NCBI RefSeq assembly: GCF_902859745.1 | Contig: NZ_CADIJW010000019.1 | Span: forward strand, 1-64,000 | Source of the DNA: Achromobacter dolens | GTDB taxonomy: Bacteria; Pseudomonadota; Gammaproteobacteria; Burkholderiales; Burkholderiaceae_B | Direction of reading: 5' to 3' | DNA length: 64,000 bases | Shown here: piece by piece, positions 7,304 to 12,505 of the stretch | Numbering within the stretch: the stretch's first letter is position 1 | Layout of the letters: every line of letters starts with the position of its first letter | The notes under the pieces: model-generated | What the model saw: the letters and a program-made list of their open reading frames with translations, nothing else | Databases searched by the model: none | What the model was told of the DNA's origin: nothing | Translations under genes and position numbers: made by a program

Positions 7304-7404
7304 GGCGCCATGGTAGAGGCGCGCGCGCGCCGGACATAGCCCGGCGCGGTAGCCACAGTGTTGCGCCGCCCGTGCAGATGATCCGCGCGGCCGGCGCGCG
7401 GGCG

Positions 7405-8880
7405 TCAGCCGGCGATCTGCACGCCGATCCAGAACAGGCCGGCCGCCAGCAGCATGGAGGCGGGCAGGGTCAGGATCCAGGCCAGCAGGATGTTGCGCAC
7501 CGTGCCGCCCTGCAGGCCGCTTTTGTTGGCGATCATGGTGCCGGCCACGCCGGACGACAGCACGTGGGTGGTCGACACCGGCAGGCTGAAGACGTTGGCC
7601 AGGCCGATGGCGCCGACCGCCGTCAACTGCGCCGACATGCCCTGGGCGTAGGTCATGCCCTGCTTGCCGATCTTCTCGCCCACCGTCAGCACCACGCGGC
7701 GCCAGCCGACCATGGTGCCGGCGCCCAGCGCCAGCGCCACCGCCACGATCACCCAGAAGGGCGCGTATTCGGTGGTGGCGGTCAGGTCGGCGCGCAGGCG
7801 CTGCAGGTCGGTGCGCTCGCGCGCCGGCAGGCCTTCGATGCGGGCCACCTTCTTGGCGGTGTCGTCCAGGCACAGCAGGTAGCGGCGCACGTCGATGCGC
7901 TTGGCCGCCGACAGGTCGGCGTAGTTGCTGACGCCGTGCAGGTCGGCCTGCAGCGCGTCGATGGTGGGCAGGGTCAGTTCGGGATCGCAGCGGAAGGTGC
8001 GCGGCAGGTCCGAGGCCGAGCCGGCGCGCTTGAGCGCCAGGAAGTCGCCCAGCATGGCTTCGTTGCGCTGGTAGAACGCGCTCAGGTGGGTGGCCGCGTC
8101 GCGCGTGCGCTCGATCTGGTAAGTGGTGCTGTTGGTGTCCAGCACGAAGTTGGCCGGCACGATGCCGATCAGCACCAGCATGATCAGGCCGATGCCTTTC
8201 TGGCCATCGTTCGAGCCGTGCACGAAGCTCACGCCCATGGCCGACAGCACCAGCACCAGGCGGTTCCAGAACGGCGGGTGTTTCTTGTTGTCGATGGCGC
8301 GGCGCTGCTCGGGCGTCTTGTGCATCTTCGACAGCGGCAGCCAGCGCTTGAGCGCCAGCAGCAGGCCGCCCGCGACCAGGAAGCCGGCCACCGGCGACAC
8401 TACCAGCGAGGCGCCGATGTCGATCGCCTTGCCCCAGTTCACGCCCTCGGCCAGCGGCAGGTCGGTGATCAGCGCGTTGGCCAGGCCCACGCCCAGGATC
8501 GAGCCGATCAGCGTGTGCGAGCTGGAGGCCGGGATGCCGAAATACCAGGTGCCCAGGTTCCAGGCGATGGCCGCGGCCAGCATGGCGAACACCATGGCCA
8601 GCCCGCGTCCGGTATCGACGTTGATCAGCAGTTCCACCGGCAGCAGGTGGACGATGGCGTAGGCCACGCCGACGCCGCCCAGCAGCACGCCGAGGAAGTT
8701 GAAGATGCCGGAGAGCACCACCGCCAGGTGCGGCGGCATGGCCTTGGTGTAGATGACCGTCGCGACGGCGTTCGCCGTGTCGTGGAAGCCGTTGATGAAT
8801 TCGAAGGCCAGGACGAACGTCAGGGCCAGTGCAAGGCTGAGGCCAACCCAGAGGTCTAGGCCATGAAAGAGGGTGGGCAT
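7405..8880 (-). CDS. pit: PiT-family inorganic phosphate transporter
   Basis: 491 residues. It carries the two inverted PiT signature repeats: EFINGFHDTANAVATVI near the N-terminus and SFVHGSNDGQKGIG in the middle, plus the paired GIPASSSHTLIGS and SLPVSTTHVLSSG segments. About ten membrane helices with a large cytosolic loop in the centre. Start ATG at 8880 chosen because upstream codons are not conserved-looking. It imports metal-phosphate coupled to protons with low affinity. The 133-bp gap upstream, toward the DltX-like gene, shows no clear terminator. Confidence 0.92.
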   Translation of the reverse strand: MPTLFHGLDLWVGLSLALALTFVLAFEFINGFHDTANAVATVIYTKAMPPHLAVVLSGIFNFLGVLLGGVGVAYAIVHLLPVELLINVDTGRGLAMVFAMLAAAIAWNLGTWYFGIPASSSHTLIGSILGVGLANALITDLPLAEGVNWGKAIDIGASLVVSPVAGFLVAGGLLLALKRWLPLSKMHKTPEQRRAIDNKKHPPFWNRLVLVLSAMGVSFVHGSNDGQKGIGLIMLVLIGIVPANFVLDTNSTTYQIERTRDAATHLSAFYQRNEAMLGDFLALKRAGSASDLPRTFRCDPELTLPTIDALQADLHGVSNYADLSAAKRIDVRRYLLCLDDTAKKVARIEGLPARERTDLQRLRADLTATTEYAPFWVIVAVALALGAGTMVGWRRVVLTVGEKIGKQGMTYAQGMSAQLTAVGAIGLANVFSLPVSTTHVLSSGVAGTMIANKSGLQGGTVRNILLAWILTLPASMLLAAGLFWIGVQIAG

Positions 8881-9013
8881 GGGGGCGGGCGAGGTTCCGG
8901 CGGAGGCCCAGATTATTGCAGATTTGTGACCTGTCCCTGGTTGCTTCAGGCAACTCTCGCCGTTCCCCGGGTCCGGCAAACCGCTCGCGCGCCGTCGCCG
9001 TCGGCGCGGCCCG

Positions 9014-9139
9014 CTAGAACTTCTGGTACTGGAACTCGATCTCCAGGGGCTTGCCCAGGTTGGCCGAGGTGTCGGCCTGGATCATCATGACCGCCAGCAG
9101 GCCCAGGTAGAGCAGGCACAGCCACAGGGTTTTTCTCAT
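9014..9139 (-). CDS. DltX-like membrane microprotein (41 aa)
   Basis: 41 residues: MRKT, one hydrophobic helix (about 5-20, LWLCLLYLGLLAVMMI), a short polar stretch, and the C-terminus EFQYQKF. This layout, one membrane helix then an aromatic Y-x-x-F end, is the mark of DltX in Gram-positive dlt operons. DltX's C-terminal Tyr is reported to carry the D-alanyl group from the MBOAT protein DltB to DltD. The ATG has AAGGA at correct distance and overlaps the stop of a 16-codon ORF that itself overlaps the dltD stop. Seen: topology, motif and coupling to a dltD-like gene. Inferred: acyl-carrier role. No MBOAT (dltB), dltA or dltC gene is in the window. Confidence 0.75.
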   Translation of the reverse strand: MRKTLWLCLLYLGLLAVMMIQADTSANLGKPLEIEFQYQKF

Positions 9140-9186
9140 CGCGCGGTGTCCTTGACGGCGTTCGGCGGGGGGGAGGGCGATTTCAT
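9136..9186 (-). CDS. 16-codon ORF linking dltD-like gene and DltX-like gene
   Basis: Reads MKSPSPPPNAVKDTAR. Its ATG overlaps the TGA of the dltD-like gene and its TGA overlaps the ATG of the microprotein, both as ATGA. It contains the AAGGA ribosome site of the microprotein. Most likely it lets ribosomes pass from dltD to the microprotein (translational coupling) and is not a functional peptide. It could also be chance. Confidence 0.4.
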   Translation of the reverse strand: MKSPSPPPNAVKDTAR

Positions 9187-10307
9187 GGGCGGAAGACCTC
9201 GGCGATGCGCTGGTTGACCCGCAGCCAGCCCAGTTCGCCCAGGTGCTGCACGTCGCGCAGGGTGCCGATCTCGTAGGGCGCATCGTACATGTCCATGCAG
9301 GCCATGGCGTAGCGCGCGCACAGCGCGTCGACCTGACGTTGCACGGGCGTGAAGCGGTCCAGGTCCCTGAAGACCATCGGGTGCAGCGGCTGCATCACGA
9401 ACAGGGCATTGACGCCGTGGTTGCGCAGCAGCCGCATCAGCGCTTCCAGCTCGCGCAGTTCGTCCTTGCCGGTCAGCGGCTGGGGCTGGAAGGCGGTCTT
9501 GCCGCCGGCCGCGACCGTTTGCAGGTATTTGTCGAAGAAATCGTCGCGCACGGCGTAGCGGTTGCGCGTCATCTGCGCCTGTTCGGCTTCCTGGGCCTCG
9601 CGCGCCAGGGCGTCCCAGTCCACCACCCGGGCCGCCGCCGTCGGGCCGGCGGCTTCCTGCTCGGGCGCGGGGGCGGCGTGCGCGGGCGTCCACAGTCCGA
9701 TCAGCCGCTGGCGGAAGACGTAGGCCTGCTCGGCCGCCATCGACCACGCCACCCGGGCGTCGCCCTTGTCGCGCAGCCAGCGCGCCACCTGTTCGCGGCC
9801 CTCGGGCTGGCGCAGCAGGCGCGGCAGCAGGGGATTGGCATGCTCGCGGAATTCATCCGGGCCCAGCCCGCCGTCGCCGTCGAACCAACCCGGCGACACC
9901 ATGATGACGACGCGCGAGGCGGACGACAGGTCGTCGGCCAGCGCCGCCAGCACCAGTTGCATGCCCAGCGACTGGAAGCCGGAATGGCCGTAGGCCATGA
10001 CCGGCATGCGCAGCTCGTCGGCCAGGAAGCGGTAGGGCACGAAGCGCAGGTCGGTGCTGGTCAACTCGGACGACCCCAGCACCACCAGCCGGTCGCCGGT
10101 GCGCAGCGCCTGGCTCAGCCGCGACAGGTTGCGGGTCTGGTCTTCCAGGGTGTTGCCGAGGTTATGGATGTAGACCCCGGTCGCCGCTTCGGCGCACGGG
10201 CCGGTGCGCAGGGCCAGCCAGTGCCAGGCGCCCCAGCCCGCGGCCAGCGCCACCGACAAGGCCAGCGCCGCCGCCAGCGCATGCTGCCCGAGGGTGCGTG
10301 TGAACAT
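9183..10307 (-). CDS. DltD-like periplasmic O-acyl (D-alanyl) transfer protein
   Basis: 374 residues. An N-terminal membrane anchor (about 8-32) precedes an SGNH-like domain: RLVVLGSSELTSTDLRF near residue 73-89 (GSSE block with the catalytic Ser), GHSGFQSLGMQL, VVIMVSPGWFDGDGG, and the C-terminal RDVQHLGELGW block with the Asp/His of the triad at about 352 and 355. These are the DltD blocks. DltD moves D-alanine onto cell-envelope polymers outside the membrane; a D-alanylation locus (dra) is known in Bordetella. Upstream is the divergent mogA; downstream is the coupled microprotein, then pit. The rest of the dlt set is absent here. The ribosome site is poor. Confidence 0.85.
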   Translation of the reverse strand: MFTRTLGQHALAAALALSVALAAGWGAWHWLALRTGPCAEAATGVYIHNLGNTLEDQTRNLSRLSQALRTGDRLVVLGSSELTSTDLRFVPYRFLADELRMPVMAYGHSGFQSLGMQLVLAALADDLSSASRVVIMVSPGWFDGDGGLGPDEFREHANPLLPRLLRQPEGREQVARWLRDKGDARVAWSMAAEQAYVFRQRLIGLWTPAHAAPAPEQEAAGPTAAARVVDWDALAREAQEAEQAQMTRNRYAVRDDFFDKYLQTVAAGGKTAFQPQPLTGKDELRELEALMRLLRNHGVNALFVMQPLHPMVFRDLDRFTPVQRQVDALCARYAMACMDMYDAPYEIGTLRDVQHLGELGWLRVNQRIAEVFRP

Positions 10308-10586
10308 GAGGAACCAGGAAGGCGCGGCGCGCGGATCGGGGTGAAAGAGAGGATTGTGAGCGGATGTTATCCAGCCCCCATGACCGAGACAAGGGCGCAA
10401 ACCCGCGGGTGCCCGCGGATTCCCCTTTTTGCCACAGGGGGACCGGCGCCCCCGGCCGGCCGCCGGGCGGAGAATGCGATAGCATCCCTGTCTGGCGGGG
10501 TCCTGGATTTCCAGGATTGACCGCGCCCCGGCCCGCCGGCGGCGCCCGTGCCCCGCGCCTTCCGTCCACCCCACGCCCGATCGCCC

Positions 10587-11234
10587 ATGACCGCCCCTAC
10601 CCGTATCGCCCGCCGCCATCCCGACGAACTGATCATCGGCCTGGTGTCGATTTCCGACCGCGCGTCGGCCGGCGCCTACCAGGACGAGGGCCTGCCGTCC
10701 CTGCGCGCCTGGCTGGGCGGCGCGCTGGCCTCGCCGTGGCAGGCGGTGGACCGGCTGATCCCCGACGAGGCGGCCCGCATCTCCGAGACGCTGATCGAGC
10801 TGGTCGACACCTGCGGCTGCGATCTGGTCCTGACCACCGGCGGCACCGGTCCGGCGCGGCGCGACGTCACGCCCGAGGCCACGCTGGCGGTCGGCACCAA
10901 GGAAATGCCGGGCTTCGGCGAGCAGATGCGCCAGATCAGCCTGCGCTTTGTGCCCACCGCGATCCTGTCGCGGCAGGTCGCCGTGGTCCGTGAACGGCCG
11001 GCGCATGCCGCCCTGATCGTGAACCTGCCGGGCCAGCCCAAGGCGATCCGCGAGACGCTCGAGGGCCTGAAGGCCGACGATGGCTCGACGCTGGTGCCGG
11101 GCATCTTCGCCGCCATTCCCTATTGCATCGACCTGATCGGCGGGCCCTATGCCGAGACCCGTCCCGAGGTCATCGCCGCATTCCGCCCCAAGTCGGCGCG
11201 CCGCCCGCAGCCGTCGCCGGACGCTGCGGTATAG
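10587..11234 (+). CDS. mogA: Molybdopterin adenylyltransferase MogA
   Basis: 215 residues. The MPT-binding motifs are plain: IIGLVSISDRASAGAYQDEGLPSL near the start, the GGTG loop in LVLTTGGTGPARRDVTPEAT, and NLPGQPKAIRE. MogA activates molybdopterin by adenylylation before MoeA inserts molybdate. Start ATG follows a GC-rich region; the upstream in-frame ATG at 10548 adds an unconserved tail. The 279-bp gap between dltD and mogA holds both divergent promoters; I see no further gene there. Confidence 0.92.
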   Translation: MTAPTRIARRHPDELIIGLVSISDRASAGAYQDEGLPSLRAWLGGALASPWQAVDRLIPDEAARISETLIELVDTCGCDLVLTTGGTGPARRDVTPEATLAVGTKEMPGFGEQMRQISLRFVPTAILSRQVAVVRERPAHAALIVNLPGQPKAIRETLEGLKADDGSTLVPGIFAAIPYCIDLIGGPYAETRPEVIAAFRPKSARRPQPSPDAAV

Positions 11235-11273
11235 TTCGCCGCCTCTTTCCATTCCTTGCCAGAGAGTCCCGAT

Positions 11274-11621
11274 ATGAAGGTCCGTACCGCCTTGTCCCTC
11301 ACCGCCGTCGTGCTCGCCGTGTCCGCCTGCGCCAACGTCAAAGACGTCCGCGACCGCGATCCGGTGTTCTACGGCTCGACCCCGCGCACGGCCGAGGACT
11401 ACACCAACTGCGTTGCCGCGGCCTGGAAGGACCAGGGCGTGCGCTTCGAGCGCAAGGCGGTGCGCAACGGCTTCGAGCTGATCCAGTCGGACAGCCTGGG
11501 CGTCGAGGCGGTGCTGACCACCACCACCTGGAAGGGCAAGACCGAGGCGCGCCTGTCGACCCGCATCGCGCGGCGCGACCAGACCCTGATCGAACCCGCC
11601 AACCTGTGCCTGCAACAGTGA
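11274..11621 (+). CDS. Small outer-envelope lipoprotein
   Basis: 115 residues. The signal peptide MKVRTALSLTAVVLAVSAC ends in a lipobox (LAVSAC), so Cys19 would be lipidated. The rest is a small domain with two further Cys residues (NC at the AEDYTNC helix and one near the end, NLCLQQ) that could pair. I do not recognise a family; similar lipoproteins are common in Bordetella/Achromobacter. The ATG of the next gene overlaps its TGA, so it is co-translated with an M23 peptidase and may help in cell-wall work (inference). Confidence 0.75.
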   Translation: MKVRTALSLTAVVLAVSACANVKDVRDRDPVFYGSTPRTAEDYTNCVAAAWKDQGVRFERKAVRNGFELIQSDSLGVEAVLTTTTWKGKTEARLSTRIARRDQTLIEPANLCLQQ

Positions 11622-12505
11622 TGCCGCGACGCCGAGACATGCTGCGGCTGGGCCTGGCCGCGGCCGCGGTGGGCCTGGCCCTGCCGGTGCGCGCCAAGCA
11701 AGCGCCGGCCGCGCAGCAGGGCGGTTTCATCAGCCGCAAGCTCAATGCGCCGGTGCCGGGCGGCGTCGCCGTGCTGGCGCTGGGCGACGCGGCGACGGCG
11801 CCCGAGGTCACCTACCGCGACCGCCGCGTGCTGGTGGTGCGCGAAGATGGCAAGCAGTGGATCGCCGTGGTCGGCATCCCGCTGGCGGTCAAGCCGGGCC
11901 CACAGGAAATCTCCGTGCGCGACGGCGCCGGCACGCGCCAACTGCCGTTCACCGTGCGCGCCAAGGAATACGTGGCGCAGCACATCACGCTGAAGAATCC
12001 GCGCCAGGTCAATCCCGATCCTGAAGACATGAAGCGCATCGAGCGCGAGATGACCGAGCAGAGCGCCGCCAATCGCGCCTATCGCGCCGGCGTCACGCCC
12101 AGCAACCTGCTGCTGGACCGTCCGGTCAGCGGCGGCCGCCTGTCCAGTCCGTTCGGCCTGCGCCGCTTCTTCAACGGCGAGGAACGCAATCCGCACTCCG
12201 GCCTGGATTTCGCCGTGCCGGCTGGCACGCCGATCAAGGCGCCGGCCGCCGGCGTGGTGTCGTTGGTGGGGGATTATTTCTTCAACGGCAAGACCGTCTT
12301 CCTGGACCATGGCCAGGGCTTGGTCAGCATGTTCTGCCACATGTCGGCCATTGACGTGAAGGTCGGCGATGTCGTGCCGCGCGGCGGGGTGGTCGGCAAG
12401 GTCGGCGCGACCGGCCGGGCGACGGGCCCCCACTTGCATTGGAACGTCAGCCTGAACGATGCGCGGGTCGACCCCGCGATCTTCATCGGCGCCTTCAAGC
12501 CCTGA
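11621..12505 (+). CDS. M23 family metallopeptidase (LytM/peptidoglycan endopeptidase type)
   Basis: 294 residues. The N-terminus has a twin-Arg-like signal (PRRRDMLRLGLAAAAVGLAL), so export, perhaps by Tat, is likely. The C-terminal half is the LytM domain with zinc ligands His192 and Asp196 in HSGLDF and the HLH motif at 271-273. All expected ligands are present, so it should be an active endopeptidase and not a degenerate activator. Its ATG overlaps the lipoprotein stop (TGATG). The 88-bp gap after it toward the convergent hypothetical gene shows no strong terminator. Confidence 0.9.
   Translation: MPRRRDMLRLGLAAAAVGLALPVRAKQAPAAQQGGFISRKLNAPVPGGVAVLALGDAATAPEVTYRDRRVLVVREDGKQWIAVVGIPLAVKPGPQEISVRDGAGTRQLPFTVRAKEYVAQHITLKNPRQVNPDPEDMKRIEREMTEQSAANRAYRAGVTPSNLLLDRPVSGGRLSSPFGLRRFFNGEERNPHSGLDFAVPAGTPIKAPAAGVVSLVGDYFFNGKTVFLDHGQGLVSMFCHMSAIDVKVGDVVPRGGVVGKVGATGRATGPHLHWNVSLNDARVDPAIFIGAFKP

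Follow-up and report, generated by a model that had tools for sequence, protein, structure and literature searches.

A second DltX-like microprotein and DltD-type protein, a candidate additional acyl-transfer unit, beside a complete dlt-type locus in Achromobacter

In addition to a complete dlt-type locus, the genome of Achromobacter dolens carries a stand-alone gene pair encoding a DltD family protein and a membrane microprotein of 41 residues, which ends in a sequence fitting the acyl-shuttle motif FxYxxF. The pair is located on contig C19 of the 6.29 Mb genome, within the stretch of 64,000 nucleotides that was analyzed as a whole and is called the window in the following. By analogy with characterized Dlt systems, we favor with moderate confidence a role of the pair as a second shuttle-transferase cartridge, which has no loading genes of its own and would be charged by the DltB protein of that locus, shared between both sets. 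The function class, i.e. an acyl-shuttle microprotein combined with DltD, is known. New, as far as we have seen, is a stand-alone second shuttle-transferase pair that has long been kept beside one complete locus.

The DltD-like gene (P0001; 10307-9183, minus strand) encodes 374 amino acids and is followed at a distance of 43 bases by the microprotein gene (P0002; 9139-9014, minus strand), whose product has the sequence MRKTLWLCLLYLGLLAVMMIQADTSANLGKPLEIEFQYQKF. The features of the pair and its surroundings are the following (window coordinates, with the supporting evidence in parentheses):

9183..10307, minus strand: second DltD-like, putative SGNH acyltransferase gene, 374 amino acids plus stop (Pfam DltD, structure-profile match, dN/dS)
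10071..10073, minus strand: codon of the putative nucleophile Ser79 in the GSSE block (position checked; invariant; aligned with 6o93)
9243..9254, minus strand: codons of Asp352-His355 (DVQH), putative catalytic Asp and His (invariant; aligned with 6o93)
9014..9139, minus strand: DltX-like membrane microprotein gene, 41 codons (conserved after DltD; dN/dS)
9077..9130, minus strand: predicted single membrane helix, microprotein residues ~4-21 (Kyte-Doolittle peak)
9017..9034, minus strand: C-terminal FQYQKF with Tyr38 as putative acyl carrier (fits FxYxxF; invariant residues)
10354..10393, minus strand: conserved block preceding the pair (consensus derived from 38 upstream sequences)
8911..8936, no strand: block on the side of the phosphate-transporter gene, recognizable at pair-less sites (read in empty-site sequences)
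10472..10488, no strand: block on the side of mog, recognizable at pair-less sites (read in empty-site sequences)

The pair is flanked by genes for a phosphate transporter (Pfam PHO4) and for Mog (Pfam MoCF_biosynth); further neighbors are, as we read them, presumably a thioredoxin-like protein, a lipoprotein and an M23 protein. None of these neighbors points to a function of the pair. No dltA, dltB or dltC lies beside the pair, so that a complete one-operon Dlt system is not present at this site. Judged by its conservation, the upstream block is probably the pair's own promoter or operator: its element TAACATCCGC was found in 35 of the 38 upstream regions, with CTTGT close by in 37 of 38. A strict scan for sigma-70 promoters and terminators gave no match, nor did Rfam over the window at gathering scores. 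When the upstream block was compared without gaps, over 15 bases, with the sequence preceding the dlt locus of the source genome, no match was obtained, and shared regulation of the pair with the locus was rejected on the basis of this one genome and ungapped comparison. The upstream comparison elsewhere gave one G+C-rich match of 12 of 15 bases.

According to its Pfam match, the larger protein is a member of the DltD family (PF04914; E 2.1e-46, 159.3 bits at a cut-off of 22.7). This confirms the sequence-only reading of the window from which we started, which had described a dltD-like gene with intact GSSE and DxxHLGxxGW blocks. Indeed, GSSE (Ser79) and DVQHLGELGW (Asp352, His355) are intact, and the three residues are invariant in an alignment of 30 sequences, i.e. 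at the sequence level the catalytic residues of the family are in place. A profile of the window DltD and seven relatives matched the solved DltD structures 6o93, 6pfx, 7dxm and 3bma, and in the 6o93 alignment GSSEL pairs with the GSSE block and ADTIHLGWRGW with the DVQH block. By hydropathy, the N-terminus contains a hydrophobic stretch at approximately residues 10-27. Against the NCBIfam DltD equivalog model TIGR04092 the protein reached 102.5 bits, below the cut-off of 150; a 305-residue fragment of the DltD encoded in the dlt-type locus reached 83.8 bits.

Hydropathy analysis of the microprotein predicts one membrane helix (Kyte-Doolittle peak 2.36, residues 4-20). Basic residues flanking a helix report its membrane topology according to the positive-inside rule, and the basic N-terminus of the microprotein suggests that its C-terminus faces the periplasm. 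The C-terminus, EFQYQKF, fits FxYxxF, which a passage of PMC12148441 gives as the definition of the acyl-shuttle motif. Hence, the same-strand gene of 41 codons was correctly described beforehand, and its product combines the two traits of an acyl-shuttle microprotein, one membrane helix and a C-terminal FxYxxF. The designation as DltX-like was upheld in these two respects, but not by a match to Pfam DltX (PF12459), which was absent from the matches up to E 10, a range in which few matches weaker than about 0.1 pass the filters of HMMER. The same model likewise matched neither the microproteins of the dlt locus, a Klebsiella plasmid and a Flavobacteriales contig, nor anything in the source genome searched up to E 10. 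No Pfam or NCBIfam model matched the window, locus and Klebsiella microproteins, and no solved structure matched the window microprotein by sequence. In the cited part of PMC3783018, the DltX gene is typically found directly upstream of dltA, with two exceptions; the window gene comes after dltD and has no adjacent dltA. We infer from sequence that the microprotein works like DltX but falls outside of Pfam DltX membership.

The genome search for dltA, dltB and dltC advised by the sequence-only reading was successful. The source genome encodes one other DltD, which is part of a complete dlt-type locus with the order C-D-X-B-A on contig C14 (coordinates of locus L003):

7400-7669: dltC (PP-binding, 2.4e-08)
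end at 8828: locus dltD (DltD gene)
8825-9031: locus microprotein gene, overlapping dltD by ATGA (product ends EFQYQQF)
8991-10166: dltB (MBOAT reading frame; best NCBIfam match DltB, 207.9 bits at a cut-off of 375)
10183-11631: dltA (AMP-binding; best NCBIfam matches DltA, 384.7 bits at a cut-off of 476)

DltA, DltB and DltC are therefore all encoded in the genome, by this locus. As the genome has one normal dlt-type set, the window pair constitutes a second set, which revises the earlier view of a two-part module: the pair and a partner elsewhere stand, but the pair is not the sole set. The substrate of DltA, DltB and DltC is assigned by resemblance, because all three score under the NCBIfam equivalog cut-offs, and the acyl group itself is assumed from the similarity to DltA. 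We call the locus dra-like, as it presumably comprises the same kind of genes as the dra locus of Bordetella, which reportedly (Taneja et al., 2013) contains D-alanylation-type genes. Unlike dra, the window pair forms an extra set of its own.

In Gram-positive bacteria, as stated in passages of PMC12148441, D-alanine carried by DltC is transferred by DltB to DltX, where it is attached to the Tyr of FxYxxF; from there it passes to the Ser of DltD and on to the polymer, and DltX, DltB and DltD form one complex. The DltX end FLYFGF is predicted to bind the active site of DltB, according to a part of PMC11035591. By analogy with this pathway, DltA and DltC of the C14 locus would activate D-alanine or another small amino acid, and DltB of the same locus would pass the acyl group across the inner membrane and load it onto its own locus microprotein and also onto Tyr38 of the window microprotein. 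The latter would hand the acyl group over to Ser79 of the window DltD, which would esterify an acceptor in the envelope, each DltD thus taking its acyl group from its own shuttle microprotein. We consider it very probable that microprotein shuttle and DltD transferase act together.

Did the second pair arise by recent duplication of the locus pair? When 100 DltD proteins were placed in one tree (midpoint root), 41 second-type rows split from 59 locus-type rows with a support of 100. The former comprise 38 Achromobacter and three Bordetella proteins, and each genus holds together (95 and 99). An outgroup tree, calculated from 37 of the 101 family loci and three outgroups, likewise placed the locus-type rows together (97/95) and the second-type rows together (93/85, just below the tool's star); its root is unsure owing to very long outgroup branches (lengths of 8 to 10). 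One outgroup row (L148) is represented by a reading frame that matches Pfam DltD, and none of the trees includes L101, the interrupted DltD copy from the Bordetella genus. As the second-type rows are separate from the locus-type rows, the second pair does not stem from a recent duplication of the locus pair. As judged from the trees, the window DltD is a separate lineage, common to four Bordetella genomes at another site. The microproteins differ correspondingly ahead of the motif: ANLGKP occurs in 38/38 second-pair microproteins of Achromobacter and ANLGRP (three) or ANLGQP (one) in those of Bordetella, while locus microproteins have TGSGGP in most cases and DLGGP in six.

From the long separate history of the two DltD lineages we guess that the acceptor of the window DltD differs from that of the locus DltD, and give this an even chance. 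The most far-reaching version, in which one DltB charges two exchangeable cartridges, each having its own acceptor, so that the cartridge and not the MBOAT protein sets the target, is put forward tentatively, as its odds appear somewhat short of even. The main rival to separate acceptors is that the pair represents a conditional isoform, which has both its DltB and its acceptor in common with the locus DltD and just works from another promoter or under another condition. Family, motif and the single DltB are indeed the same, and the pair possesses its own conserved upstream block that is unmatched upstream of the dlt locus in the source genome. However, a deep split divides the two DltD lineages, and 38/43 genomes have retained both, a retention that in our judgement is longer than plain redundancy usually lasts, and the microproteins have the lineage-specific parts just mentioned. 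An isoform with the same acceptor is accordingly regarded as rather unlikely. Nothing in the neighborhoods of the pair, neither at the Achromobacter nor at the Bordetella sites, names an acceptor.

The genomes of the genus bear out that the pair's smaller gene is real and conserved. The window-type pair is present in 38 of the 43 Achromobacter genomes searched, and the locus-type DltD in 43/43, one each; the pair is absent from G018, G023, G025, G033 and G038, among which G033 is only 57% complete. Conservation of the small reading frame next to dltD had been set beforehand as a test, and a homologous small reading frame comes after the second DltD gene in 38 of 38 genomes that have one. Measured from the DltD stop, its start ranges between 4 bases inside that gene and 67 bases past it, and an ATGA overlap is found in 8/38 cases. 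The start codon is supported, because similarity begins at its Met and the in-frame stretch before it is unalike. The window microprotein is a real gene under purifying selection. F36, Q37, Y38, K40 and F41 are invariant in 38/38 microproteins while their codons vary (Tyr: TAC in 15, TAT in 23), as foreseen for the C-terminal Tyr and Phe; residue 39 is Ser in 30/38 and Gln in 8/38. Mean pS is 0.44 as compared to a pN of 0.05, and the median dN/dS is 0.069 (703 pairs each). For the window-type DltD, the median dN/dS is 0.137 (666 pairs from 37 of the 38 genus copies, one copy of 375 amino acids having been left out). Over the last 36 residues, pN is 0.046 for the second-pair microprotein and 0.023 for the locus microprotein, in genome sets that are not identical; the faster change would be consistent with a variable acceptor as well as with weaker constraint.

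The motif also speaks to the nature of the reaction. SGNH proteins include esterases, and the catalytic blocks of the window DltD are those of its family, so that the protein, instead of being a transferase, could act as an esterase or editor of D-alanyl groups to which the microprotein contributes a docking subunit. However, 42/42 second-pair microproteins retain both Phe as well as the Tyr that would accept the acyl group (those of the genus plus four Bordetella-genus copies), and a mere docking helix would not need these residues, making an esterase role improbable as compared to the transferase role favored here.

Which MBOAT protein would load the window microprotein? The source genome encodes two, the locus DltB on contig C14 and another on contig C23 (L001 1126-2535, minus strand). 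The latter, which we take to be AlgI-like, has an own C-terminus FLYFQF and adjoins a protein with a sub-threshold match to AlgF (26.9 bits at a cut-off of 34.4); no FxYxxF motif is present at the C-terminus of the locus DltB. Both architectures, the motif fused to an MBOAT protein and the separate microprotein, are thus held by one genome. The locus DltB is present in 42/43 genus genomes, the incomplete G033 showing none, and it is the sole MBOAT found in 17/43, counted as MBOAT matches at E up to 0.001, so that a very distant MBOAT or an acyltransferase-3 protein may have escaped the count. Of these 17 genomes, 15 carry the pair (G001, 2, 4, 5, 8, 9, 16, 17, 19, 22, 35, 36, 39, 41 and 42) and two do not (G023 and G038). 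The co-occurrence is not independent of phylogeny, as nearly all cases belong to one genus.

A likely candidate for the MBOAT partner that the sequence-only reading had placed elsewhere in the genome can therefore be named: because the two microproteins share the end E-F-Q-Y and no other MBOAT was found in these 15 genomes, the DltB of the dlt locus likely accepts both and charges the window microprotein. The AlgI-like protein, present in part of the genomes including the source genome, is a very improbable partner. It was rejected since the 15 pair-bearing genomes have no second MBOAT at the threshold used; moreover, it carries its own C-terminal FLYFQF, a fused architecture that needs no microprotein according to passages of PMC12148441, and it adjoins the AlgF-like match.

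Wherever the contig reaches, the Achromobacter pair lies between mog and the phosphate-transporter gene. The four second pairs of the Bordetella genus (L144, L145, L146, L101) are near tRNA-Pro (GGG), i.e. at a different site. At the pair-less sites of four complete genus genomes and of Bordetella G081, which has its pair elsewhere (L114 to L118), mog is next to the transporter gene with 116-386 bases between the aligned parts. Neither DltD nor microprotein matches were detected up to E 1 at the four genus sites; L118 (G081) gave two chance-level matches (E 0.56 and 0.99). At the site of G038 (L116), a stretch is retained that in our reading resembles the upstream block of the pair and suggests a deletion. 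According to their locus DltD proteins in the tree, G018, G025 and G038 fall within groups of genomes that carry the pair, and because of this nesting and the remnant in G038, loss is the likelier course for these three. In G082 (L101, Bordetella genus), the second DltD is interrupted by an internal TAG, whereas the following microprotein is intact including the full motif. The pair is hence dispensable, being absent from four complete genus genomes, apparently lost in three of them, and broken in G082. As far as these sequences tell, it behaves as a two-gene unit that is gained, moved and lost. These absences and the broken DltD might also indicate a decaying duplicate devoid of function, which is hardly credible in view of the low dN/dS ratios of both genes, the intact microprotein in 38/38 genus copies and the lack of internal stops in any genus DltD match.

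How does the pair compare with known systems? It resembles the Gram-positive Dlt system described in passages of PMC12148441 in that a single-helix microprotein with FxYxxF adjoins a DltD family SGNH transferase, and the Achromobacter genome also has DltA, DltB and DltC. It differs by its Gram-negative host, the missing Pfam DltX match and its position apart from the single locus with DltA, DltB and DltC. In PatA/PatB and other MBOAT-SGNH systems an acyl-Tyr in a C-terminal hexapeptide similarly feeds an SGNH transferase, but in those systems the MBOAT itself carries the motif, whereas in the window it is on a separate protein of 41 residues; outside the Dlt pathway, MBOAT systems have no DltX-like microprotein (both according to passages of PMC12148441). 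Genes of dlt type have been described for the Gram-negative bacteria Dickeya and Pectobacterium (PMC3544676, PMC5541007); the parts of these papers considered here name dltD and dltBAC, but neither a microprotein nor a second pair, and a passage of PMC3544676 calls the modified substrate of Gram-negative dlt unidentified. In S. aureus, a second protein, FmtA, spreads D-alanine to a second polymer; unlike the proposed shuttle, which would be loaded directly by DltB, FmtA is considered to release D-alanine from lipoteichoic acid (passages of PMC12505958). In the titles and abstract openings among the literature matches listed, we recognized no Gram-negative DltX and no second DltX-DltD pair.

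How the target is chosen when a single MBOAT is confronted with two transferases is not addressed in the passages cited above on the acyl-shuttle mechanism, itself a recent finding. This choice becomes directly testable in a natural genome that combines one DltB with two microprotein-DltD pairs. If the proposed role of the second pair holds true, envelope acylation would be a branched pathway in which one DltB feeds two exchangeable transfer units. The defined hexapeptide and the gene pair moreover offer a handle for seeking the D-alanine acceptor in Gram-negative envelopes.

Finally, the distribution beyond the genus was determined. The 43 genus and 268 family genomes are all that were obtainable in the collection used, while 399 genomes of the order and 370 of the class were drawn evenly from larger groups. 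DltD is encoded in 59 of the 268 family genomes, the other 209 being devoid of any. In 59/59, a microprotein with the end YQQF comes after a locus-type DltD; both types occur together in 42 genomes, whereas 17 have just the locus type and none has just the pair type. The 42 genomes with the second type are the 38 of Achromobacter and four of the Bordetella genus, of which all eight genomes with DltD have the dlt-type locus including its microprotein. A loose motif scan recovered the true microprotein at 101/101 family loci, eight further loci having been set aside beforehand, six as duplicates and two as belonging to the C23 MBOAT; L092 and L097 gave one chance motif match each besides it. Strict F.Y..F is present in 95/101, the remaining six having Tyr at the first place. 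A DltD search of named genomes returned 29 loci: 25 from Achromobacter, with A. insuavis as closest named relative of the window DltD (100% as printed), three from Bordetella (hinzii, pseudohinzii and genomosp. 12) and one from a Flavobacteriales MAG at 25%. At the order level, DltD was found in 6/399 genomes at E 0.001, five over the cut-off and four of those in the same family; at the class level in 1/370, this one being the source genome itself.

Mobile carriage of the pair was considered and rejected: no DNA match was obtained in 72,556 plasmid records and none in the viral contigs searched, and at the protein level there were only three weak matches, to DltD encoded by plasmids of Klebsiella and Enterobacter, with a query coverage of 20%.

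Because the family loci, a Klebsiella plasmid, the Flavobacteriales contig and G464 (L148), from another family of the order, all show a microprotein with DltD, this combination is usual in the Gram-negative cases seen. A microprotein beside DltD is thus regular, and what is unusual in Achromobacter is the second pair. On the Flavobacteriales contig, a small reading frame ending NFIYQQF lies between DltD and MBOAT; in G464, one ending DFVYQQF is followed by MBOAT, an AMP-binding gene and DltD. The plasmid of Klebsiella electrica (L149 6089-10141, plus strand) encodes in a row DltD, a microprotein, an MBOAT, an AMP-binding protein and an acyl carrier protein; its microprotein has 40 residues, ends HFEYQKF and is annotated as hypothetical protein. 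Transposase genes are located on both sides of this dlt-type cluster.
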